Part shown: positions 13,411-60,765 of the stretch, piece after piece | Position numbering within the stretch: position 1 is the first letter of the stretch | Layout of the letters: each line of letters starts with the position of its first letter | Source of the DNA: Thermococcus bergensis | Lineage (GTDB): Archaea > Methanobacteriota_B > Thermococci > Thermococcales > Thermococcaceae | Direction of reading: 5' to 3' | Length of the DNA: 64,000 bases | Assembly: GCF_020386975.1 (NCBI RefSeq) | Contig: NZ_JABFNK010000005.1 | Span: forward strand, 434,001 to 498,000 | Notes under the pieces: generated by a model | What the model saw: only the letters and a program-made list of their open reading frames with translations | Databases searched by the model: none | Told to the model about the DNA's origin: nothing | Program-made: the position numbers and the translations under genes

Positions 13411-14273
13411 CTAGTTCCCACCACCTGTGAAGTTGTATAATCTGTCCAGATTCACGGCCAGAATCGCCCCTAAAATCCTGACAGCTAACCCCCTCAAACT
13501 AACACTCCTGCTCGGCCTCAGAAGAAACTCAGAAAACTTCGAAAACAAAGTCTCAATCCTCCTGCGAAAGTCAGACAAGTACTTGTAAAACTTCTTCTCC
13601 TCCAGATTACTAATCTGATTCCCCCGCTTTACTGGCGTGTAAACAACGCCAAACCTCAAAAACTCCTCCTCGAGTTCCCTGCTAACATACCCCTTATCCA
13701 AAAACAGAAAACAGCCGGAAAACTCCTCAACAATCACCCAGAACTTTTCCCGGACAACACTCACATCATGCTTATTCGCCGGATCAACAGACAGTAAAGC
13801 CAGCAAATTTCCATCAGAGTAACAGGTCAGCTTGTACCCATAGTAAAACTTTTTTTAGAGGGAACAAACCCAACTGCGGGCTTTTCAGAGATGACTTCTG
13901 AAGAACCCTCCTTATCCTTCCTGTTTTTTCTGGCCAACTCCTTGGTCTGAATGGGCTTTGAGTCCAGTATTCTAACGTATTCTCTGGCGTGTTTTTTGAA
14001 TAATTCTTCCTGTGCTAGGAGTAGGAGTTTTTCGTGCCTGTTCAAGCGTTCTGTTAGTTTGTTGTACCTGATTTTGGGGAACAGTTTCATTTCTTCGATT
14101 AGGACTCTGTAAGCGTGCTTGTAAACTCCGTTAAAGTGCAAGTGTGCTAGTATTGCGAAGGTTATTAGGTCGTAGAGGCTGATTATTTCCCTGTGAGTGT
14201 TTTTCGGGTAGTGTTTGCTGATTATCGGATAGATTTCGGATTTTATGATCAGGATTTCCTGCTGAAAGTTCAT
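13411..14273 (-). CDS. IS982 transposase, two frames joined by -1 shift (copy A)
   Basis: A DDE transposase encoded as orfA (14273-13827, 148 codons from ATG) and orfB (continuing to 13411). OrfA runs out of frame just after an A7-G run. A -1 shift there reads SKKKFYYGYKLTCYSDG, the expected IS982 core motif, and continues into LLSVDPANKHD and FLFLDKGYVSRELEEE. All complete copies in the window have the same arrangement, so it is either a programmed shift or an inherited defect. Start ATG follows GGTGGTTGTT. Confidence 0.85.
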
Positions 14274-14292
14274 AACAACCACCAATCAACCA

Positions 14293-21536: not shown

Positions 21537-22468
21537 ACCCTAGTTCCCATTAGATCGTTAGAGTTATAAGCACTTAAGTCTTTTGGTTGATTGGTGGTTG
21601 TTATGAACTTTCAGCAGGAAATCCTGATCATAAAATCCGAAATCTATCCGATAATCAGCAAACACTACCCGAAAAACACTCACAGGGAAATAATCAGCCT
21701 CTACGACCTAATAACCTTCGCAATACTAGCACACTTGCACTTTAACGGAGTTTACAAGCACGCTTACAGAGTCCTAATCGAAGAAATGAAGCTGTTCCCC
21801 AAAATCAGGTACAACAAACTAACAGAACGCTTGAACAGGCACGAAAAACTCCTGCTCCTAGCGCAGGAAGAATTATTCAAAAAACACGCCAGAGAATACG
21901 TTAGAATACTGGACTCAAAGCCCATTCAGACCAAGGAGTTGGCCAGAAAAAACAGGAAGGATAAGGAGGGTTCTTCAGAAGTCATCTCTGAAAAGCCCGC
22001 AGTTGGGTTTGTTCCCTCTAAAAAAAGTTTTACTATGGGTACAAGCTGACCTGTTACTCTGATGGAAATTTGCTGGCTTTGCTGTCCGTTGATCCGGCGA
22101 ATAAGCATGATGTGAGTGTTGTCAGGGAAAAGTTCTGGGTGATTGTTGAGGAGTTTTCTGGCTGTTTTCTGTTTTTGGATAAGGGTTACGTTAGTAGAGA
22201 ACTTCAGGAGGAATTCCTGAAGTTTGGCGTTGTTTACACGCCGGTGAAGCGGGAGAATCAGGTTAGTAATCTGGAGGAGAAGAAGTTTTACAAGTACTTG
22301 TCTGACTTTCGCAGGAGGATTGAGACTTTGTTTTCGAAGTTTTCTGAGTTTCTTCTGAGGCCGAGCAGGAGTGTTAGTTTGAGGGGGTTAGCTGTCAGGA
22401 TTTTAGGGGCGATTCTGGCCGTGAATCTGGACAGATTATACAACTTCACAGGTGGTGGGAACTAGGGT
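21537..22468 (+). mobile_element. IS982-family element (copy B)
   Basis: Complete, 932 bp, ends ACCCTAGTTCCCA. The 8-base target duplication ATAAAAAC lies at 21529-21536 and 22469-22476. It is in the promoter region of the acetamidase gene and upstream of the CGP-CTERM gene. Same orientation as copies C and F. Confidence 0.93.
21603..22465 (+). CDS. IS982 transposase, two frames (copy B)
   Basis: OrfA from ATG 21603 stops at 22049; orfB is open from before 22070 to 22465. The A7-G run at 22020-22027 is the joining point for a -1 shift. This copy differs from A by a few residues (ELQEEFLKFG, KRENQVSNL). Confidence 0.85.
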
Positions 22469-34394: not shown

Positions 34395-35326
34395 ACCCTA
34401 GTTCCCATTAGATCGTTAGAGTTATAAGCACTTAAGTCTTTTGATTGATTGGTGGTTGTATTGAGTTTTCAGAGGGAAATCCTGATCATAAAATCCGAAA
34501 TCTACCCGATAATCAGCAAACACTACCCGAAAAACACTCACAGGGAAATAATCAGCCTCTACGACCTAATAACCTTCGCAATACTAGCACACTTGCACTT
34601 TAACGGAGTTTACAAGCACGCTTACAGAGTCCTAATCGAAGAAATGAAGCTGTTCCCCAAAATCAGGTACAACAAACTAACAGAACGCTTGAACAGGCAC
34701 GAAAAACTCCTGCTCCTAGCGCAGGAAGAATTATTCAAAAAACACGCCAGAGAATACGTTAGAATACTGGACTCAAAGCCCATTCAGACCAAGGAGTTGG
34801 CCAGAAAAAACAGGAAGGATAAGGAGGGTTCTTCAGAAGTCATCTCTGAAAAGCCCGCAGTTGGGTTTGTTCCCTCTAAAAAAAGTTTTACTATGGGTAC
34901 AAGCTGACCTGTTACTCTGATGGAAATTTGCTGGCTTTACTGTCTGTTGATCCGGCGAATAAGCATGATGTGAGTGTTGTCCGGGAAAAGTTCTGGGTGA
35001 TTGTTGAGGAGTTTTCCGGCTGTTTTCTGTTTTTGGATAAGGGGTATGTTAGCAGGGGGCTCGAGGAGGAATTTCTGAGGTTTGGCGTTGTTTACACGCC
35101 AGTAAAGCGGGGGAATCAGATTAGTAATCTGGAGGAGAAGAAGTTTTACAAGTACTTGTCTGACTTTCGCAGGAGGATTGAGACTTTGTTTTCGAAGTTT
35201 TCTGAGTTTCTTCTGAGGCCGAGCAGGAGTGTTAGTTTGAGGGGGTTAGCTGTCAGGATTTTAGGGGCGATTCTGGCCGTGAATCTGGACAGATTATACA
35301 ACTTCACAGGTGGTGGGAACTAGGGT
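34395..35326 (+). mobile_element. IS982-family element (copy C)
   Basis: Complete 932 bp, inserted in the MBL gene. The flanking direct repeat is 13 bases (TACAAATTTTATT, 34382-34394 and 35327-35339), longer than the 7-8 bases of the other copies. Its transposase start region matches copy D. Confidence 0.93.
34461..35323 (+). CDS. IS982 transposase, two frames, TTG start (copy C)
   Basis: OrfA begins at TTG 34461 (LSFQREILII) where copies A, B, E and F have ATG (MNFQQEILII). It stops at 34907 and orfB runs to 35323, joined through A7-G at 34878-34885. The variant start is shared only with copy D. Confidence 0.83.
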
Positions 35327-35563: not shown

Positions 35564-35665
35564 CGCCGTTCTGCCTACCAGTAAAGTGCGTGTAGGGTGT
35601 TAATTTCGTAACGGGTAGGCTTCCCTCCTCCCGTCTTCATCGGAGGGCTTTCGGGGGGAACGGGA
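35564..35665 (-). ncRNA. Candidate omega/re-RNA right-end structure of IS607
   Basis: Hairpin 1 pairs 35573-35579 with 35614-35620; hairpin 2 pairs 35623-35628 with 35642-35647, around the conserved loop TCTTCATC. The mini-element at 58069 has both helices at matching places with different bases (8 and 6 pairs), so pairing is kept while sequence changes. Overlap of the guide-RNA scaffold with the tnpB 3' end and element end is known for IS605/IS607 TnpB. The guide would begin in the MBL gene after AGAACGGC. Confidence 0.6.
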
Positions 35666-36756
35666 ACTCCCCACATCTTCAGGGCTTTCAAACGAATATT
35701 CCACGAGCCGACCACATCACGGTCAGCCTCAAAACCACAATTCGAGCACTTTAAAACCCTGTGCCCATTCGGGACTAGCTTCCCCCCACATATCGGACAC
35801 AGGGATGAAGAGTAAGCAGGATCAACAAAAACGACACTCACACCCTTTAACTTGGCTTTATACTCGATAATGGATTGAAGCTTTCTAAAACTCCACCTGT
35901 GCAAGCGACCATTCAACTCAGCAGAGTATCTGACTGAGTCTCTAATATTAGTCAAATCCTCAAGGGCAATACAACCATAATTCTCTGCCAGTTCAACAAT
36001 CTTGGTTGCTAACTTGTGATACAAGTCATTTAGTCTGTTCCTTTCTCTTTCGCCATACTTTTCCAAAAGCTCTTTTCTCTTTTTACCCGTTTTTAGCTTC
36101 TTCTGAATTCTCCTCCTCTTCAAGAAATAACCCGTTCTAATTTCCCTCTCGTGAGTAATGATCTGGATAAAGTTCCCATCTGGAAGGCTGAGGGTTACAT
36201 TATTCTCGTTCAAGTCCACACCAACGACGGCTTTTGACTCTCTGACTTCAACTTCCTTTGAGAACACCACGTGGAGAAAAACTCCTTTTGGATTTTTAAC
36301 CAGCCAGGCTTGTCCTATTTTCCACTCCCTAAACTTCTCGTGGTACTTTGCAGGGTAAAACTCCAGTTCCAGCCTTCTACTTGGAGTTGAGAGTTTAATA
36401 AATCCTCCTTCAATGTCGAGTTTGAAGAGGTGATCATCAAGCATTATCACTTTTTTCTTGAAAACAGGCTTTCCATTAGCTTTTCCTTTTCTCTTCCTCT
36501 TCCTGTAACTCTTGTAGATTGAGGTAGCCATTTGGCAGGCCGTGTAAATGTAGTGGCTTGGGAGTTCTGGGTACTGCTCCCGAAGGCTTTTGTACGTCTC
36601 TTTCTTCAACCGGTAGAAGCTCGTAATGTTGTTCTCAAAAACATAATCAAGGAGTAAATTTACAATATCAGAATAAAGGGAGAAGAGGTCTTCTAACCCT
36701 TCAGGTTCTGTTTTGAGTTTGAATTTTGCCGTGAGTTTAATCGTCTCTGAGGGCAT
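35575..36756 (-). CDS. tnpB: TnpB of IS607 element
   Basis: 393-residue RNA-guided nuclease. Complete catalytic set: VVGVDLNENNVTLSL (Asp), CIALEDLTNIRDS (Glu) and EADRDVVGSWNIRLKAL (Asp). Four-Cys zinc finger CPICGG...CSNCG. Its ATG lies inside the last codons of the recombinase gene (20-base overlap). The 3' coding end overlaps the structured right end discussed under 35564-35665. Confidence 0.9.
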   Translation of the reverse strand: MPSETIKLTAKFKLKTEPEGLEDLFSLYSDIVNLLLDYVFENNITSFYRLKKETYKSLREQYPELPSHYIYTACQMATSIYKSYRKRKRKGKANGKPVFKKKVIMLDDHLFKLDIEGGFIKLSTPSRRLELEFYPAKYHEKFREWKIGQAWLVKNPKGVFLHVVFSKEVEVRESKAVVGVDLNENNVTLSLPDGNFIQIITHEREIRTGYFLKRRRIQKKLKTGKKRKELLEKYGERERNRLNDLYHKLATKIVELAENYGCIALEDLTNIRDSVRYSAELNGRLHRWSFRKLQSIIEYKAKLKGVSVVFVDPAYSSSLCPICGGKLVPNGHRVLKCSNCGFEADRDVVGSWNIRLKALKMWGVPVPPESPPMKTGGGKPTRYEINTLHALYW

Positions 36757-37345
36757 TCTTTACCGCCTCGACAAGGCGTTTTTTCTTGTGAGAACGCATT
36801 CCATAAAGCTTTCCAGCAAAAGAGGTTACGATGGCTAACAAGTCCTCAACAAGTTCCTTTTCTGGCGTTTTCTCTTCATCATCAAAGATTACTTCAACCT
36901 CAACCCCGTGAGAGTTAAAGTATTGCTCAAGGTATTTGAATCCAAAGCGGGTGAGCCTGTCTTTGTACGTTATAACGACTTTTGTTATTTCCCCGCTTTC
37001 AATGAGTTTGAAGAGCTGTTTTAACCCCTTCCTGTTCTCGTTCAGTCCTGAGGAAATGTCTGTTATGATTTTTGCAACTTGGTAGCCTTTTGATGCGCAG
37101 TAGTTCTTGAGGTATTCGACCTGTCTTTCAAGGTCTTGTTTTTGGTCTCGGCTTGAGACTCTTGCGTAAATGACGACCTTGTCGGGGATTTTGCCTTCGA
37201 GGAGTCTTTTAATCTCGCTTTCCGGGATGCGGTATTCTTTTCCAACCCTGTATGCTTTAATCTCGCCGGCTTTGATTTTTCTGAGGAGTGTCGGCTTGCT
37301 AATGCCAAGGAGCTGTGCCGCTTTCCCTGTCCGATAAAGCTTCAT
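36737..37345 (-). CDS. IS607 serine recombinase (TnpA)
   Basis: About 202 residues. The N-terminal MerR-like helix-turn-helix YRTGKAAQLLGISKPTLLRKI is followed by the resolvase catalytic domain VVIYARVSSRDQKQDLERQ (Ser in ARVSS) and KDRLTRFGFKYLE. ATG 37345 is the normal family start; an in-frame upstream start at 37405 lies at the element edge. Complete. Confidence 0.9.
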   Translation of the reverse strand: MKLYRTGKAAQLLGISKPTLLRKIKAGEIKAYRVGKEYRIPESEIKRLLEGKIPDKVVIYARVSSRDQKQDLERQVEYLKNYCASKGYQVAKIITDISSGLNENRKGLKQLFKLIESGEITKVVITYKDRLTRFGFKYLEQYFNSHGVEVEVIFDDEEKTPEKELVEDLLAIVTSFAGKLYGMRSHKKKRLVEAVKNALRDD

Positions 37346-40300
37346 ACTGCACACCCCTATTACAAACAATGACACAAAATATATAAACTTTACGATTTTA
37401 ACCATTTAGAAAACAGCCCAGCGTGCTTTAAATGCAGGGAGATGCAGAACCATAAGTGAGGTGTTGTTGAAATTCCTCAACTCTTTGGACAGGCCCTTAT
37501 AGCATTTTTTTAAAGCTTCTCTCTGGGATTTATCCCTAATGACATCTTTGATGATTTCACTGATGTTATTATTTTTATCATTGTTGATGTTTTTTTCGCC
37601 ATAAGTTTTTTTTAAGAGTTTTTTAAGATATCTACCTACACACAGCTTAAACTGGCCTAAGGTCTGGGAACTTACCCTATAATTGAAAAGCCTAAACATC
37701 CATATTGGGAATCCATTTAGGGTCACTCTTAAGGTGCCTGCGTGGCTTCTAACTTCGACAGTTCTTTGATTAATTTGTTGTGATGAGTTTCCTTCTGAAT
37801 TAGTGATCTGCGACTGTGGGTTTTTATATGGCGACAAATTGTTCTCTATTTCAAACTTTCCTTCTCTTGGAGGTTCTGGAGGAAGTTCTGGAGGTTCTTC
37901 TTTGGAGAAGGGGCGCCACTCCCTCTCCGGCTCTTCTCCTCCAATTAAAATTACTTTTTTAACACCTCTTCCCAAAAGATACTCTACAGGATCTGCAAGG
38001 AATGAGTAGTACTCCTCTGATGCCTGTGGTGTCTCAAGTGCAACGATCAATCGTTCAATGGGTGTTAAATATGGAAGAATCACTGTACCAACCTTAGTTC
38101 TCTTCAGCAAGTGGGGAATACCGCTGGTATGATCTTTGTGTAAATGAGAGATTATCAAAAGATCAATGTAGTTGTTACCTCGAAAACATCGAAATTCTCG
38201 ATCAATTGCCTTCTTAACTAGGCTCTCTTTTTCAGACCCACAATCGTAAACAAAATTAAAAGAAGCATTTCCGTACTCCAGCTTTCCAGTATAAAACAGC
38301 CCCTGGCCTACATTGTGGAACTTAAACTCAGCCCTAAGCCCCCTCATAATTCCACCCCTCACCCCTTCCCCTTCTTCGAAAATGTTTTCGCTTTCACAAG
38401 CCTCGTCTTCACGAGCTCAACAACGGCCCTGTAAACCTCCAGCTGTTCCTCCTCAGTTAAGCCAAGCGCCTCAAAGATAACCCTGTCAAGTTCCCTCCTG
38501 TCCGGCATGACCTTGTCGAGGGATACATCATCAGGGTTGATGTTGCTCAAGTCCTTGTTGGGCTTCGGAAGGCCGAGCTCTTCGAAGATGCTTCTTACTT
38601 CCCGGTTTGCCGTTTGAGCAAAGATATCAATTAGCCATTGCTCAGTGATTGGGGAAAGCTTGTATGGATTAATAACCAAAGTAACTTGAATTTCAGGCCC
38701 ATAAACTGTTAACAAACCATCACCTAAGTTAGTTCTCCCAACAATTTCCGTGCTGAAGATATGGATAGTTGAGTTAAGTATTGCATCTAAAATCTTTTTC
38801 TTAGGTTTGTACTTCTGCTTGTAGATACCAACAAAAACAACATCCCCAGCATAAATCTGGGCGTCCTCAGGTAAAATTGGTGTCCAATTTCTCTGATCTC
38901 TAAATCTTAATATTACAAAATCTTGCTTCTCTTGTACTGGTAAAACCCACCAATATCTCCTTCCTTGCAAAGTACGACGGGAGGGATATCCCTTACTTTC
39001 ACCCCATCGTATGTAGGAAAGAATGTGTTTTTTACCTGAGTCTTCGAGTTCCTTTAATGATAAGGAGCAATAAAGCATTACTCTATTTGGAGCAACTGGA
39101 AGCACTACATAAGTTTGGATTTCCCGAGTAGATGTTATGGTTGGTTTCAAAAACTCCTCCTCGATGTATCCCTCCCATCCAGCTTTGTTTCTCACGGCAA
39201 CCAATCCCTCCTCCGGCTTGTGAACCCTTCCACAAATAGGACAAACGGGCCACTTTACTGGGTTCTTTATCGGCTCAAGGTAGAAGAACTCGTTTGCTCC
39301 TGTTGTGAATCCTCTCTTAACCTCAGCAATCTCACCCAGCCTCACAAGCTTTCCTTTTCCTTTATCAAGAATCACGTAGAATATCCTCGGCGCCCTGATT
39401 AATATTCCTCCCCACTTCATGCCCTCGTATTCTCCAGAAATGTTGTAAGTCCCCAGAAGGGGATTCCTCGTACCGATCTCAAAACCGCCCATCTTAGCTA
39501 ACTCAACACTTCTAATGCTCCTGATCCTGATATCATCGTCCTCATAGCTGTAAACTTTCCCGCCGAAGACCTCAACCTCCTTTACCTTTCCAACGTAGCA
39601 GTTGAGCATCTTTTCCACTGTTTCAAGGCTAAGTTCATCAAAGTTTTTCTTTAGAAGGACGAAGTTTACGCATTCATCTCCAACTGTGTTAAACAGCTCT
39701 TTGGGCTTTCTCGTCAGGACGGTAATTACGGTGTTGACATCAGCCTGTTCGAACGACCTCGTTGTGTAGTCTATTATCCTCTTTAAATACGTGAATCTCA
39801 GGAAGAACTCCTGCAACTGAGTTCCATAATCAACATCGAGCCACGAGTTGGATGTGATGAAAACCAGCGCTCCCTTTGGGTTGAGCAGGTTAACGCCCTG
39901 AATGAAGAAGTAAGCATAAAGGTCACTCCTTTTGTTCAAGCGCATCTCATGCTCAAACTTTTCCTTGATTATTGTCTCCATGTGTTTTATTATCTTCTCC
40001 TTGTACTCCTTCTTTAACTTCTCCTGCTCCTTCTTGGGAAGCATCTCGAACTCTGCCAAATCATAGTACTCTGGATAAATCTTCTCCTGCCTCACATACG
40101 GCGGGTTTGCTATCACAATATCGAAGCCCTTCTTGTGGAGCATCACATCAGGAAAGTCCAGCTCCCATATGAAAGGTGGTTTTTCAATTCTTCCTTCTTT
40201 GATAGCCGAGAGGAGGAGCTTAAACGCTTTCTTGTCCTTGGTTTCATCCGAATCTTTCAGCTCTTCCAGAACGTCCTCCGCAAAGGCTTCAAGAACGTGC

Positions 40301-40901: not shown

Positions 40902-41833
40902 ACCCTAGTTCCCACCACCTGTGAAGTTGTATAATCTGTCCAGATTCACGGCCAGAATCGCCCCTAAAATCCTGACAGCTAACCCCCTCAAACTAACACT
41001 CCTGCTCGGCCTCAGAAGAAACTCAGAAAACTTCGAAAACAAAGTCTCAATCCTCCTGCGAAAGTCAGACAAGTACTTGTAAAACTTCTTCTCCTCCAGA
41101 TTGCTAATCTGATTCCCCCGCTTTACTGGCGTGTAAACAACGCCAAACCTCAGAAATTCCTCCTGAAGTTCTCTACTAACGTAACCCTTATCCAAAAACA
41201 GAAAACAGCCGGAAAACTCCTCAACAATCACCCAGAACTTTTCCCGGACAACACTCACATCATGCTTATTCGCCGGATCAACAGACAGTAAAGCCAGCAA
41301 ATTTCCATCAGAGTAACAGGTCAGCTTGTACCCATAGTAAAACTTTTTTTAGAGGGAACAAACCCAACTGCGGGCTTTTCAGAGATGACTTCTGAAGAAC
41401 CCTCCTTATCCTTCCTGTTTTTTCTGGCCAACTCCTTGGTCTGAATGGGCTTTGAGTCCAGTATTCTAACGTATTCTCTGGCGTGTTTTTTGAATAATTC
41501 TTCCTGCGCTAGGAGCAGGAGTTTTTCGTGCCTGTTCAAGCGTTCTGTTAGTTTGTTGTACCTGATTTTGGGGAACAGCTTCATTTCTTCGATTAGGACT
41601 CTGTAAGCGTGCTTGTAAACTCCGTTAAAGTGCAAGTGTGCTAGTATTGCGAAGGTTATTAGGTCGTAGAGGCTGATTATTTCCCTGTGAGTGTTTTTCG
41701 GGTAGTGTTTGCTGATTATCGGGTAGATTTCGGATTTTATGATCAGGATTTCCCTCTGAAAACTCAATACAACCACCAATCAATCAAAAGACTTAAGTGC
41801 TTATAACTCTAACGATCTAATGGGAACTAGGGT
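40902..41833 (-). mobile_element. IS982-family element (copy D)
   Basis: Complete 932 bp. Target duplication TCATAAA at 40895-40901 and 41834-41840, in the methylase coding sequence between motifs FYTPR and DPAAGSG. Inverted relative to copy C 5.6 kb away. Confidence 0.94.
40905..41767 (-). CDS. IS982 transposase, two frames, TTG start (copy D)
   Basis: OrfA from TTG 41767 to 41321, orfB to 40905, joined by the A7-G run (T7 at 41344-41350). Near-identical to copy C, including the LSFQREI start, so the two are close sisters. Confidence 0.83.
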
Positions 41834-54670: not shown

Positions 54671-55602
54671 ACCCTAGTTCCCACCATCTGTGAAGTTGTA
54701 TAATCTGTCCAGATTCACGGCCAGAATCGCCCCTAAAATCCTGACAACCAACCCCCTCAAACTAACACTCCTGCTCGGCTTCAGAAGAAACTCAGAAAAC
54801 TTCGAAAACAAAGTCTCAATCCTCCTGCGAAAGTCAGACAAGTACTTGTAAAACTTCTTCTCCTCCAGATTACTAACCTGATTCTCCCGCTTCACCGGCG
54901 TGTAAACAACGCCAAACTTCAGGAATTCCTCCTGAAGTTCTCTACTAACGTAACCCTTATCCAAAAACAGAAAACAGCCAGAAAACTCCTCAACAATCAC
55001 CCAGAACTTTTCCCTGACAACACTCACATCATGCTTGTTTGCCGGATCAACGGACAGCAAAGCCAACAGGTTCCCATCAGAGTAACAGGTCAGCTTGTAC
55101 CCATAGTAAAACTTTTTTTAGAGGGAACAAACCCAACTGCGGGCTTTTCAGAGATGATTTCTGAAGAACCCTTCTTCTCCTTCCTGTTTTTTCTGGCCAA
55201 CTCCTTGGTCTGAATGGGCTTTGAGTCCAGTATTCTAACGTATTCTCTGGCGTGTTTTTTGAATAATTCTTCCTGCGCTAGGAGCAGGAGTTTTTCGTGC
55301 CTGTTCAAGCGTTCTGTTAGTTTGTTGTACCTGATTTTTGGGAACAGCTTCATTTCTTCGATTAGGACTCTGTAAGCGTGCTTGTAAACTCCTCCGAAGT
55401 GCAGGTGGGCTAGTATTGCGAAGGTTATCAGGTCGTAGAGGCTGATTACTTCCCTGCGAGTGTTTTTCGGGTAGTGTTTGCTGATTATCGGATAGATTTC
55501 GGATTTTATGATCAGGATTTCCTGCTGAAAGTTCATAACAACCACCAATCAACCAAAAGACTTAAGTGCTTATAACTCTAACGATCTAATGGGAACTAGG
55601 GT
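54671..55602 (-). mobile_element. IS982-family element (copy E)
   Basis: Complete 932 bp; target duplication TGTAGAA at 54664-54670 and 55603-55609. Lies between tdk and the histone gene, about 115 bases upstream of the histone TATA box. Sequence variants are shared with copy F (NTRREVISL, LHFGGVYKH). Confidence 0.94.
54674..55536 (-). CDS. IS982 transposase, two frames (copy E)
   Basis: OrfA from ATG 55536 to 55090, orfB to 54674, joined at A7-G (T7 at 55113-55119). The most divergent complete copy (RKEKKGSSEII, MALLSVDPAN, FTDGGN end), yet the slippery run is unchanged. Confidence 0.84.
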
Positions 55603-57368: not shown

Positions 57369-58064
57369 ATGCTGATAGCCCTCATAAGTGACATCCACTC
57401 AAACCTCGAAGCCTTAGAGGCTGTGTGGAAAAGGGTAAAGAAAGCCGATGTAATATTCTGCATGGGTGATTTAGTAGGCTATGGAGCAAATCCCAACGAG
57501 GTCGTAGAATTTTTTAGGGAGGAAATGGAAAAGAGGGAAATCCTCTGCGTGAGGGGCAACCACGATAATGCTGTTGCCTTTGGGATTACCTGGGGCTTTA
57601 ATCCCTATGCAAGGGAAGCAATAAGATGGCATGAAAGAGTGATGAGCGAAGAAAACATCGAATTCCTTCGAAGGCTTCCTGTGAGGCAACTTTTTAGAAC
57701 CGATGGGGAAGATTTTTTGATAATCCACGGCTCTCCGAGGGCACCTCTGGATGAGTACCTCTTTCCCTGGCTCCCCGATAGTGAATTTGTCGAGGTTTTG
57801 AAGTATTTCAGAGAAAAGAACCTTGTCGTGGGACATACACACATGCAGATGCTCAAGGAGATTGGAGGGAGGAGAATAATAAACCCAGGCGGAGTTGGTC
57901 AGCCCAGAGACGGAGACTGGAGGGCGGCTTATGCTTTCATAGATACGGATAGTGATGAGATAGTGTTTGAAAGGGTTGAATATGACGTTGATACGGCAGC
58001 GAGGAAGATAATAGAAGCCGGCCTGCCAAAGTTTTTGGCATATAGGCTTTATGAGGGGTATTGA
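57369..58064 (+). CDS. Metallophosphoesterase (YfcE/MJ0936-like)
   Basis: 231 residues. Calcineurin-type metal sites: ALISDIHSNLEALEAV (DxH), CMGDLVGYGANP (GD), VRGNHDNAVAF (GNHD), IIHGSPRAP and VVGHTHMQM (GHTH), all intact. Acts on phosphodiesters. Followed within five bases by an IS607-derived mini-element. Confidence 0.86.
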   Translation: MLIALISDIHSNLEALEAVWKRVKKADVIFCMGDLVGYGANPNEVVEFFREEMEKREILCVRGNHDNAVAFGITWGFNPYAREAIRWHERVMSEENIEFLRRLPVRQLFRTDGEDFLIIHGSPRAPLDEYLFPWLPDSEFVEVLKYFREKNLVVGHTHMQMLKEIGGRRIINPGGVGQPRDGDWRAAYAFIDTDSDEIVFERVEYDVDTAARKIIEAGLPKFLAYRLYEGY

Positions 58065-58068
58065 TGAA

Positions 58069-58326
58069 CCGTTCTGGTCAGCCGTAACTCGCATAAAGTT
58101 TGTAAACATCAGCACGGCTGACCTTCCCCACTCCAATCTTCATCGTGGGGCTTTCGGGGGGAACGGAGACTCCCCACATCTTCAGGCTCTCGACAGTCCC
58201 CATTCGGGCTTAAAACCCCACATATCGAGGACTGCCCATCACTACAAAACACTCCAAAAAATATTTAAAAATTTCGCCCTACAAACCCCAACAAACTTTA
58301 CGATTTTAACTATTTACAAAACAGCC
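58069..58326 (-). mobile_element. IS607-derived mini-element with conserved RNA-like end
   Basis: 258 bp, no recombinase. The ends CCGTTCTGG and CATTTA-like ATTTACAAAACAGCCC, with the adjacent ACTTTACGATTTTAAC, match those of the IS607 element at 35564-37417. The interior retains pieces of tnpB: GGCTTTCGGGGGGAACGG, CTCCCCACATCTTCAG and CCCATTCGGG. Two hairpins keep their pairing with changed bases (58076-58083 with 58116-58123; 58126-58131 with 58145-58150). Between the phosphoesterase stop and hypF. Confidence 0.8.
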
Positions 58327-58404
58327 CCTTTATTTCTCTTTCCAAAAACTCCCAGCTTCAAACCTTTGGTTGAAAACTCTTCATTAGTTTTTAACTTTTG
58401 GTTT

Positions 58405-58424
58405 TGGAAAGATATAAATTCCTT
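58405..58424 (+). promoter_or_regulatory. hypF promoter
   Basis: GGAAAGATATAAATTCC holds a purine BRE and a TATAAA-type core about 40 bases before the GTG start at 58453. Confidence 0.6.
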
Positions 58425-58452
58425 TTTTCCAATTCTGAAACAGGTGAAGGTA

Positions 58453-60765
58453 GTGAAAGCTTATCATATTCACGTTGAGGGAATTGTCCAGGGGGTCGGT
58501 TTTAGACCCTTCGTTTACAGAATTGCTCATGAGCACGATCTAAGGGGATACGTTAAAAATCTTGGCGATGCCGGAGTGGAGATAGTGGTTGAGGGGAAAG
58601 AAGAAAAAGTAAAGGCCTTCTTGAGAGACCTTAGAGAAAAAGCACCTCCCCTTGCTAGGGTTGAGAGGGTAAACGTGAAAGAAATCCCGTTTCAAGGGTT
58701 TGACAGGTTTTACATAGAAAAGAGCTCCAACGGTGGGGGAGGTGGGGATTCTATAATTCCTCCAGACGTGAGCATATGCGATGACTGTCTTAGGGAGCTT
58801 TTCGATCCCACGGATAAGAGGTACATGTACCCCTTCATCGTGTGCACAAACTGCGGCCCGAGGTTTACGATAATAGAAGACCTTCCTTATGACAGGGTAA
58901 ACACAACAATGAGAGAATTTGACATGTGCGATTATTGTGAGAGCGAGTACAGGGATCCTCTAAATAGAAGATATCACGCGGAACCGGTTTGCTGCCCTGT
59001 ATGTGGGCCGAGCTACAGGCTCTACACGAACGATGAAAAAGAAATAACGGGAGATCCGCTAAAGAAGGCTGCAGAGCTTATCGACAAGGGCTACATAGTG
59101 GCAATAAAAGGCATAGGTGGGATTCACATAGCCTGCGACGCTACCAATGAAGAAGTTGTGAAGGAGCTTAGGAGGAGAATTCTAAGACCCCAGCAGCCCT
59201 TTGCAATAATGGCTAAAGACCTAGAAACAGTAGAGAGCTTTGCAATAGTTAGTGATGTAGAGAGGGAAGAACTCACAAGCTACAGGAAGCCAATAGTGGC
59301 TTTAAGGAAGAAGGAGCCATTCCCGCTGCCAGAGGCTCTAGCCCCGGGCTTGCCCACTATAGGTGTTATGCTCCCCTATGCTGGAACCCACTACATACTC
59401 TTCCACTACTCAAAGAGCCCTGTTTACGTCATGACCTCTGCTAATTACCCGGGAATGCCAATGGTAATAGACAACGATAGAGCCTTTGAAGAGCTTAAGG
59501 ACTTAGCCGATTACTTCTTGCTGCACAATAGGAAAATTCTCAACAGAACGGATGACAGCGTTATCAGGTTCGTTGATGGAAAAAGAGCTGTAATAAGAAG
59601 GAGCAGAGGGTTTGTTCCATTGCCAATAGATATACCTTTTGAGTATTCGGGCTTGGCAGTTGGGGCAGAGCTCATGAATGCTTTTGGAATGGTAAAGGGT
59701 TCGAGGGTCTATCCGAGCCAGTACATAGGAAACACTTCAAAGGTTGAAGTTCTTGAGTTCATGAGGAGTGCCATAGCCCACTTCAAGAAAATACTGAGGG
59801 TTAAGGGGTTTGATCTTGTGGTTGCTGACCTTCACCCGCTTTACAACACCACAAAACTAGCAATGGAGATAGCGGAAGAGGAAAATGCAGAATTTATCCA
59901 AGTACAGCACCACTACGCTCACATTGCTTCTGTTATGGCTGAAAACAATCTTGACGAGATAGTAGGAATAGCGGTGGATGGAGTTGGCTATGGAAGCGAC
60001 GGAAACACATGGGGCGGTGAAGTTTTATACTTAAGCTACGAAGACGTTGAGAGGTTAGCCCATATAAGTTATTACCCTCTCCCAGGTGGAGATTTGGCGA
60101 GCTATTATCCTCTTAGGGCTTTAGTGGGGATTTTGAGCAAGCTATATGGGGTAGAGGAAGTAAAAGAGATAATCGAAAGGCACTGTCCAAAAGCCATTGA
60201 AAACCTCAGATACGGGAAGGTTGAGTTCAACGTAATACTTAACCAGCTCGCGAGGGAGATAAACGTTGGCTATGCTTCTTCAACAGGTAGGGTTCTTGAC
60301 GCGATGGCCGTTCTGCTCAACGTTGCATATAGGAGAACCTACGAAGGAGAACCCGCAATGAAGCTTGAGGGAATTGCCTTTAAGGGCAAAAACGATCTGG
60401 GCTTTAGCATTCCCATAGAGGGGGAAGAGCTGAAGGTTGAGGAGCTCTTTGAACAGGTTCTTGAAAGCAAGGTAAATCCGGCGGATATAGCGTATTCAGT
60501 TCACCTCGCTCTAGGGCGGGCTTTTGGGGAAGTTGCAGTTGAGAAGGCGAAGGAGTTTGGAGTTAAGAACATTGGCATAAGCGGAGGGGTTGCATACAAC
60601 GAACTCATAGTGAAAACGATAAGAAAAATCGTGGAAGGCAATGGTCTGAGGTTCTACTCAACGTACGAAGTACCAAGGGGGGACAATGGGACAAACGTCG
60701 GCCAGGCTTTCCTTGGGGGTCTCTATTTGGAGGGTTATCTGAGTAAAGAGGACTTGATACTTTGA
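58453..60765 (+). CDS. hypF: Carbamoyltransferase HypF
   Basis: 770 residues. Uses carbamoyl phosphate and ATP to place a carbamoyl group on HypE for the cyanide ligands of [NiFe]-hydrogenase. Order: acylphosphatase domain (VEGIVQGVGFRPFVYRIA), two zinc fingers (CDDCLREL, CTNCG, CDYCESEY, CCPVCG), YrdC domain (IKGIGGIHIACDA) and Kae1-like domain (VQHHYAHIASVMAEN, IAVDGVGYGSDG). GTG 58453 follows GGTGAAGG and matches the family length; an open frame continues upstream only through the mini-element. Confidence 0.94.
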   Translation: MKAYHIHVEGIVQGVGFRPFVYRIAHEHDLRGYVKNLGDAGVEIVVEGKEEKVKAFLRDLREKAPPLARVERVNVKEIPFQGFDRFYIEKSSNGGGGGDSIIPPDVSICDDCLRELFDPTDKRYMYPFIVCTNCGPRFTIIEDLPYDRVNTTMREFDMCDYCESEYRDPLNRRYHAEPVCCPVCGPSYRLYTNDEKEITGDPLKKAAELIDKGYIVAIKGIGGIHIACDATNEEVVKELRRRILRPQQPFAIMAKDLETVESFAIVSDVEREELTSYRKPIVALRKKEPFPLPEALAPGLPTIGVMLPYAGTHYILFHYSKSPVYVMTSANYPGMPMVIDNDRAFEELKDLADYFLLHNRKILNRTDDSVIRFVDGKRAVIRRSRGFVPLPIDIPFEYSGLAVGAELMNAFGMVKGSRVYPSQYIGNTSKVEVLEFMRSAIAHFKKILRVKGFDLVVADLHPLYNTTKLAMEIAEEENAEFIQVQHHYAHIASVMAENNLDEIVGIAVDGVGYGSDGNTWGGEVLYLSYEDVERLAHISYYPLPGGDLASYYPLRALVGILSKLYGVEEVKEIIERHCPKAIENLRYGKVEFNVILNQLAREINVGYASSTGRVLDAMAVLLNVAYRRTYEGEPAMKLEGIAFKGKNDLGFSIPIEGEELKVEELFEQVLESKVNPADIAYSVHLALGRAFGEVAVEKAKEFGVKNIGISGGVAYNELIVKTIRKIVEGNGLRFYSTYEVPRGDNGTNVGQAFLGGLYLEGYLSKEDLIL

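Follow-up and report, generated by a model that had tools for sequence, protein, structure and literature searches.

The window, meaning the whole stretch of 64,000 nt analysed here, covers positions 434001-498000 of C5, one of five contigs that make up a 2.08-Mb genome. It contains a mini-element of about 255 bases without a protein gene. On one side of the element lies the gene for a calcineurin-like phosphoesterase (57369-58064), and on the other hypF, which is listed at 58051-60765 but likely starts nearer 58447. In its own sense, which is that of the minus strand, the left end (GG followed by GCTGTTT) lies at 58327 and the right end (CAGAAC followed by GG) finishes at 58069. Each end has a GG core (58069-58070 and 58326-58327), and the right flank is the 3' end of the phosphoesterase gene. 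Its left end (LE, GGGCTGTTT) and right end (RE, CAGAACGG) are both also present on full IS607 copies. The preliminary description had placed the element at 58069-58326, which was the right location, but the end is one base further on, and the 5' stem at 58194-58234 and the promoter-like box had gone unmentioned. The features of the mini-element, and those of the full IS607 found elsewhere in the window, are as follows.

58069-58327, minus strand: IS607-derived mini-element, right-end GG to left-end GG, delimited by ends common to full IS607 copies
58312-58327, minus strand: left end GGGCTGTTTTGTAAAT, 81% mean identity among 28 mini-elements and the same in full copies
58262-58279, minus strand: BRE/TATA-like box GGGCGAAATTTTTAAATA, of the form AATTTTTAAATA, its TATA-like box at 58262-58273; 73% identity, as opposed to 59% and 48% for the spacers on either side
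58194-58234, minus strand: 5' stem-loop of the predicted omega RNA, CAGTCCTC ... GGGGACTG, from the fold and from covariation within the mini-elements
58151-58183, minus strand: pseudoknot block GAAGATGTGGGGAGTCTCCGTTCCCCCCGAAAG, 95% identity across mini-elements
58161-58166 with 58069-58074, minus strand: pseudoknot pairing of CCGTTC with GAACGG, paired in 98.9% of mini-element cells
58126-58150, minus strand: helix 2 and its loop, CCCCAC/GTGGGG, three pairs changed on both sides across mini-elements
58076-58123, minus strand: helix 1 (10-bp stem) and its variable loop, seven pairs changed on both sides across mini-elements
58069-58075, minus strand: right end AGAACGG, part of the scaffold, 100% identity among 28 mini-elements
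58049-58068, minus strand: predicted 20-nt guide TTCATCAATACCCCTCATAA, the right flank at the phosphoesterase 3' end, placed by position only, in analogy to the IS607 reRNA (PMC10711439)
35566-37420, minus strand: full IS607 (Pfam/NCBIfam), a possible source in trans of TnpA and TnpB
36737-37405, minus strand: TnpA serine recombinase of this IS607 (Pfam/NCBIfam)
35575-36756, minus strand: TnpB of this IS607 (Pfam/NCBIfam)
35566-35683: omega scaffold of this IS607

Judged by ends common to TnpA-encoding copies, whose TnpA scores 242.8 bits against NF033518 (cut-off 110), the mini-element is a non-autonomous member of the IS607 family. Its similarity to TnpB (57%) is confined to the last 37 residues, similarity to TnpA was not found, and comparison of LE with RE showed no inverted repeat in common, so that terminal inverted repeats are absent. 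A peptide product was considered and rejected, since the old tnpB frame is shifted by indels in several mini-elements (L084-L086, L107, L111 and L112) and the window element has only a 9-aa ATG frame ahead of the scaffold. Rfam gave nothing at gathering score in the window and nothing credible locally at a loose threshold, phage and plasmid records gave no match, and the mini-specific junction was not matched in viral contigs. This junction also occurs in L170 (JAPHEE010000044.1), from a MAG named Candidatus Alkanophaga volatiphilum, by transfer or contamination.

The scaffold is present in 59 of the 94 Thermococcaceae genomes and in none of the 21 other genomes of the phylum that were searched, and the genome under study (G000) has 21 copies, 13 with an intact tnpB and eight without. 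Elements with the same two ends fall into three classes, one of ~1.85 kb that encodes TnpA and TnpB, one of ~1.44 kb that has TnpB and a small additional open frame but no TnpA, and one of ~0.26 kb without a protein gene, which is found in several genera of the Thermococcaceae. The small frame of L061, L075, L078 and similar elements of the 1.44-kb class encodes 50-60 aa directly upstream of tnpB and shows a weak ribbon-helix-helix match (E 0.003). The TnpB encoded in the window carries the RuvC motifs GVDLN (179), IALEDLT (263) and ADRDVV (344) as well as both zinc-finger Cys pairs. By motif, the D-E-D residues of RuvC are likewise kept in the 13 open tnpB genes of the genome (392-472 aa), which could provide the nuclease for the mini-elements.

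Approximately 38 copies without tnpB were fetched from the Thermococcaceae, most of them 240-265 nt in length and built on one common plan, namely the left end, 50-odd nt, a AATTTTTAAATA-like box, 27-30 nt, the 5' stem-loop and a short variable linker, followed in the 3' part by the pseudoknot block, helix 2, helix 1, AGAACGG and the flank. None of 300 shuffles gave a box as good as that of the window element. The distance from the AATTTTTAAATA box to the 5' stem is 27-30 nt in most mini-elements and, with the general archaeal TATA-to-start distance used to place the start of transcription, this fixed spacing predicts initiation ~5 nt ahead of the stem. Identity among 28 mini-elements forms a mosaic of 0.73 in the box, 0.48-0.59 in the spacers, 0.77-0.88 in the 5' stem-loop, 0.32 in the linker, 0.95 in the pseudoknot block and 1.00 at the right end. 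The conservation of the mini-elements thus follows an RNA gene.

Read on the plus strand, GGTCAGCCGT (58076-58085) pairs with ACGGCTGACC (58114-58123) in helix 1 and CCCCAC (58126-58131) with GTGGGG (58145-58150) in helix 2, while TCTTCATC and CTTTCGGGGGGAACGG are common to the mini-element and the window IS607 (35566-37420). The preliminary description had given these hairpins, their constant loops and their positions correctly, along with pairing kept by bases other than those of the window IS607. The RNA-sense strand folds at -65.8 kcal/mol versus -53.4 kcal/mol in shuffles (z -3.2). An omega-type scaffold overlaps the 3' end of tnpB in the autonomous copies and covaries. Among the 11 scaffold types of the genome itself, 97.9% of cells are paired and eight pairs are changed on both sides, with a covariation score of 0.311 versus 0.101 in shuffled and at most 0.057 in slid controls. 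The corresponding scores are 0.314, 0.116 and at most 0.050 for 84 distinct Thermococcaceae copies. For 30 distinct mini-elements alone they are 0.286, 0.148 and at most 0.072, with 94.7% of cells paired over 32 pairs and 14 pairs changed on both sides. The further covariation among other copies that had been called for was therefore found in both sets. The CCGTTC/GAACGG pseudoknot is paired in 99.6% of cells across all copies and gains no covariation support because its sequence is nearly invariant.

L009, a TnpB-bearing copy in this genome, carries helices 1 and 2 with the bases found in the mini-element, and these changes were therefore inherited. A comparison of the mini-element with the window IS607 accordingly sets two IS607 scaffold lineages side by side rather than a functional RNA and a mini-element derived from it, and the claim of compensation by helices 1 and 2 within the mini-element was dropped. 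Among the scaffolds of the genome itself and the 84 family copies, pairing kept with changed bases lies far above the shuffled and slid controls.

The main rival explanation is that the mini-elements are plain MITE-like deletion derivatives in which only the ends required by TnpA are kept and the RNA-like parts, without guide function, are passive or refreshed by recombination. On the scaffold tree, mini-elements and full copies are intermixed, with 23 label changes versus 26.5 on shuffling, at least eight of them forced by well-supported branches. The scaffold of a mini-element is often similar to those of full copies in its own genome, and sometimes the two are identical (L015 = L020). Together, the intermixing and the resemblance indicate that scaffold exchange or repeated origin is common, and the covariation of helices 1 and 2 in the mini-elements may thus have been imported by recombination. 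Helix 2 is moreover broken in L011 and in L102, the ortholog of the window element in G077, and some complete genomes that lack this TnpB (G075, G004, G006, G008, G020 and G086) nevertheless contain mini-elements. Preservation of the mini-elements showed no significant gain with the presence of TnpB over all genera (p = 0.06) and none within genus g3 (p = 0.56).

The 5' stem argues against such passive descent. In full copies this stem is CCCTGTGCCC/GGGCACAGGG, lies within the zinc-finger codons of tnpB and is paired in 16 distinct copies. The mini-elements instead have CAGTC(C/T)C paired with G(G/A)GACTG, 120-165 nt from the right end, and at the column pair 15-50 show CG in 15 cases, UA in eight, UG in five and no mismatches. 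With bases other than those of the tnpB-bearing copies and with compensated variation, the stem appears to have been rewired in the mini-elements, and neither it nor its covariation can be supplied by recombination with full copies, though the replacement of C-G by U-A may have happened just once and then been passed on to several mini-elements. The box and the pseudoknot are also conserved where the adjoining spacers are not. Taken with these observations, a purely passive MITE-like origin is considered rather unlikely, although it is the strongest of the alternatives.

Much less probable still is that the hairpins work at the DNA level, serving the IS607 recombinase as cruciforms or recognition structures. 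The palindrome of helix 1 does lie at most 55 nt from the right end, but the ends used by IS607 serine recombinases are double-stranded and have a GG dinucleotide as their core (PMC10711439), the helices keep their pairing while their bases change, neither helix 2 nor the 5' stem is close to the ends, and the spacer and the TATA box would be left without a role.

Copies identical in their omega part occur at unrelated sites (L012 = L013 and L015 = L016 = L017), and the sites corresponding to L015 are empty in five relatives (G074, G075, G077, G080 and G085), which shows that the mini-elements are mobile. These empty sites hold sequence matching the L015 guide, exact over 19 nt in G077. L011 interrupts an asparaginase gene and L012 (G000:C5:184285-184548) a Cas4-like gene, whose right-hand part matches PF01930 (E 7e-12). 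No unoccupied counterpart of the L012 site turned up within the genus. Nearly all copies have GG at both junctions. The L015 empty sites read NNGG, which is 2 nt longer than a single GG predicts, and the reading frames at L011 and L012 call for the same two extra nucleotides, as if 2 bp were replaced or lost on insertion. In L022 (G000:C1:32740-34592) the left and right flanks come from different places in several relatives, suggesting recombination between IS607 copies.

The window mini-element has orthologous insertions at the same bases in G075 and G077. No empty site for it was found among relatives, because a similar intergenic region occurs only in these two, and both carry the insertion. 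The predicted guide TTCATCAATACCCCTCATAA is identical over 20 nt at the orthologous insertions L048 and L102, and guides differ at every other copy. In another species, the final codons of this phosphoesterase gene harbour a full IS607 (L108; G080:C1:1399018-1400870), oriented opposite to the window mini-element. The retention of one insertion and one guide in G000, G075 and G077 is what a domesticated regulator would predict, its RNA or antisense read-through into the phosphoesterase 3' end controlling the gene next to it either by itself or together with a TnpB-like protein, but these genomes are close (97-98% in the gene adjoining the element), the guide falls at the end of a gene and not in a promoter, other copies each have their own guide, and the breakage of helix 2 in L102 also counts against it, such that this explanation is highly improbable.

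Several known systems resemble the mini-elements in part. Omega RNAs that act in trans, with genes separate from that of the nuclease, have been reported for IscB and other families, and PATEs are non-autonomous elements with IS605 ends. Both are comparable in that the guide RNA stands apart from its nuclease gene or the element lacks protein genes, but they belong to other enzyme and element families. Like the MITEs of prokaryotic insertion sequences, the mini-elements are short, non-coding, mobile, present in several copies and equipped with the ends of a resident autonomous element, but they lack terminal inverted repeats and carry a conserved RNA gene. TldR-type domesticated guide systems differ in having a nuclease-dead TnpB-like protein beside the guide RNA, which the mini-elements do not, and the TnpBs of this genome keep their D-E-D motifs. 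The closest counterpart is the reRNA or omega RNA of ISXfa1, where the IS607 TnpB uses an RNA from the right end that includes a right-flank base in its scaffold, requires a pseudoknot by the guide, takes its guide from the flank and belongs to an element with a GG core (PMC10711439). The GG core, right-flank bases in the scaffold, a guide (here a predicted one) from the flank, stems with a pseudoknot by the guide and, in full copies, a scaffold over the 3' end of tnpB are all features common to ISXfa1 and the present family (PMC10711439). Unlike in ISXfa1, the mini-element RNA is encoded without tnpB, with its own promoter-like box and a different 5' stem, and lacks ~85 nt of tnpB coding sequence between the 5' stem and the scaffold. 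The sense-overlapping or omega RNAs of archaeal IS200/IS605 elements in Halobacterium and the Sulfolobales are likewise archaeal non-coding RNAs associated with TnpB, but they are linked to IS200/IS605 and overlap transposase genes, and neither IS607 nor Thermococcus is mentioned in that work (PMC12558985). No report of orphan omega RNA mini-elements of IS607 or the Thermococcales was found in the open-access literature. New here are a promoter-like box of the RNA's own, the rewiring of the 5' stem, the loss of a coding stretch and the spread throughout the family.

The hallmarks of an IS607 RNA, in a genome whose TnpBs keep the RuvC D-E-D residues, are most simply read as those of a non-autonomous element that provides the guide itself and relies on TnpB and TnpA from other copies. 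The window mini-element is thus probably a non-autonomous IS607 derivative that constitutes a mobile omega-RNA gene, takes its guide from the right flank and is retained through TnpB acting in trans. Transcription would start from the promoter-like box near the left end, just ahead of the 5' stem, pass through the scaffold and pseudoknot and leave the right end, making the first ~20 nt of the flank the guide. TnpB produced at other loci of the genome, by full IS607 copies or by those with TnpB only, would then take up the RNA, and TnpB is able to trim its own RNA (PMC10278001). The complex would cut chromosomes or incoming DNA with an unoccupied site, and repair from a filled copy would restore the mini-element, while TnpA of the full copies would move it. 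The preliminary description had already proposed an orphan TnpB guide RNA with its guide at the phosphoesterase end. That proposal fits the IS607 ends, the tnpB-overlapping scaffold of full copies, the pseudoknot by the guide, the promoter-like box and the intact TnpBs, though the support it had drawn from compensation by helices 1 and 2 in the mini-element itself fell away with the L009 match and the mixed tree. A broader proposal, put forward tentatively, is that the Thermococcaceae may harbour a long-lived lineage of transposons consisting of a promoter and guide RNA only, with their own streamlined and rewired 5' stem, which use resident IS607 TnpA and TnpB across the family and have their scaffold updated by recombination.

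If the guide-RNA reading is true, the selfish benefit of TnpB extends to elements without proteins and the nuclease becomes a common good among related transposons. The mini-elements would then be a natural set of ~165-nt guide-RNA genes from hyperthermophiles that shows which part of the tnpB-encoded RNA is dispensable, and retention in trans would be directly testable in genetically tractable Thermococcus.

The window also contains five copies of a DDE transposase-type element (13411-14285, 21591-22465, 34449-35323, 40905-41779 and 54674-55548). Each comprises two adjacent open frames (~152 and ~131 aa), perhaps joined by programmed frameshifting, and the second frame matched Pfam DDE_Tnp_1 in the two copies tested.
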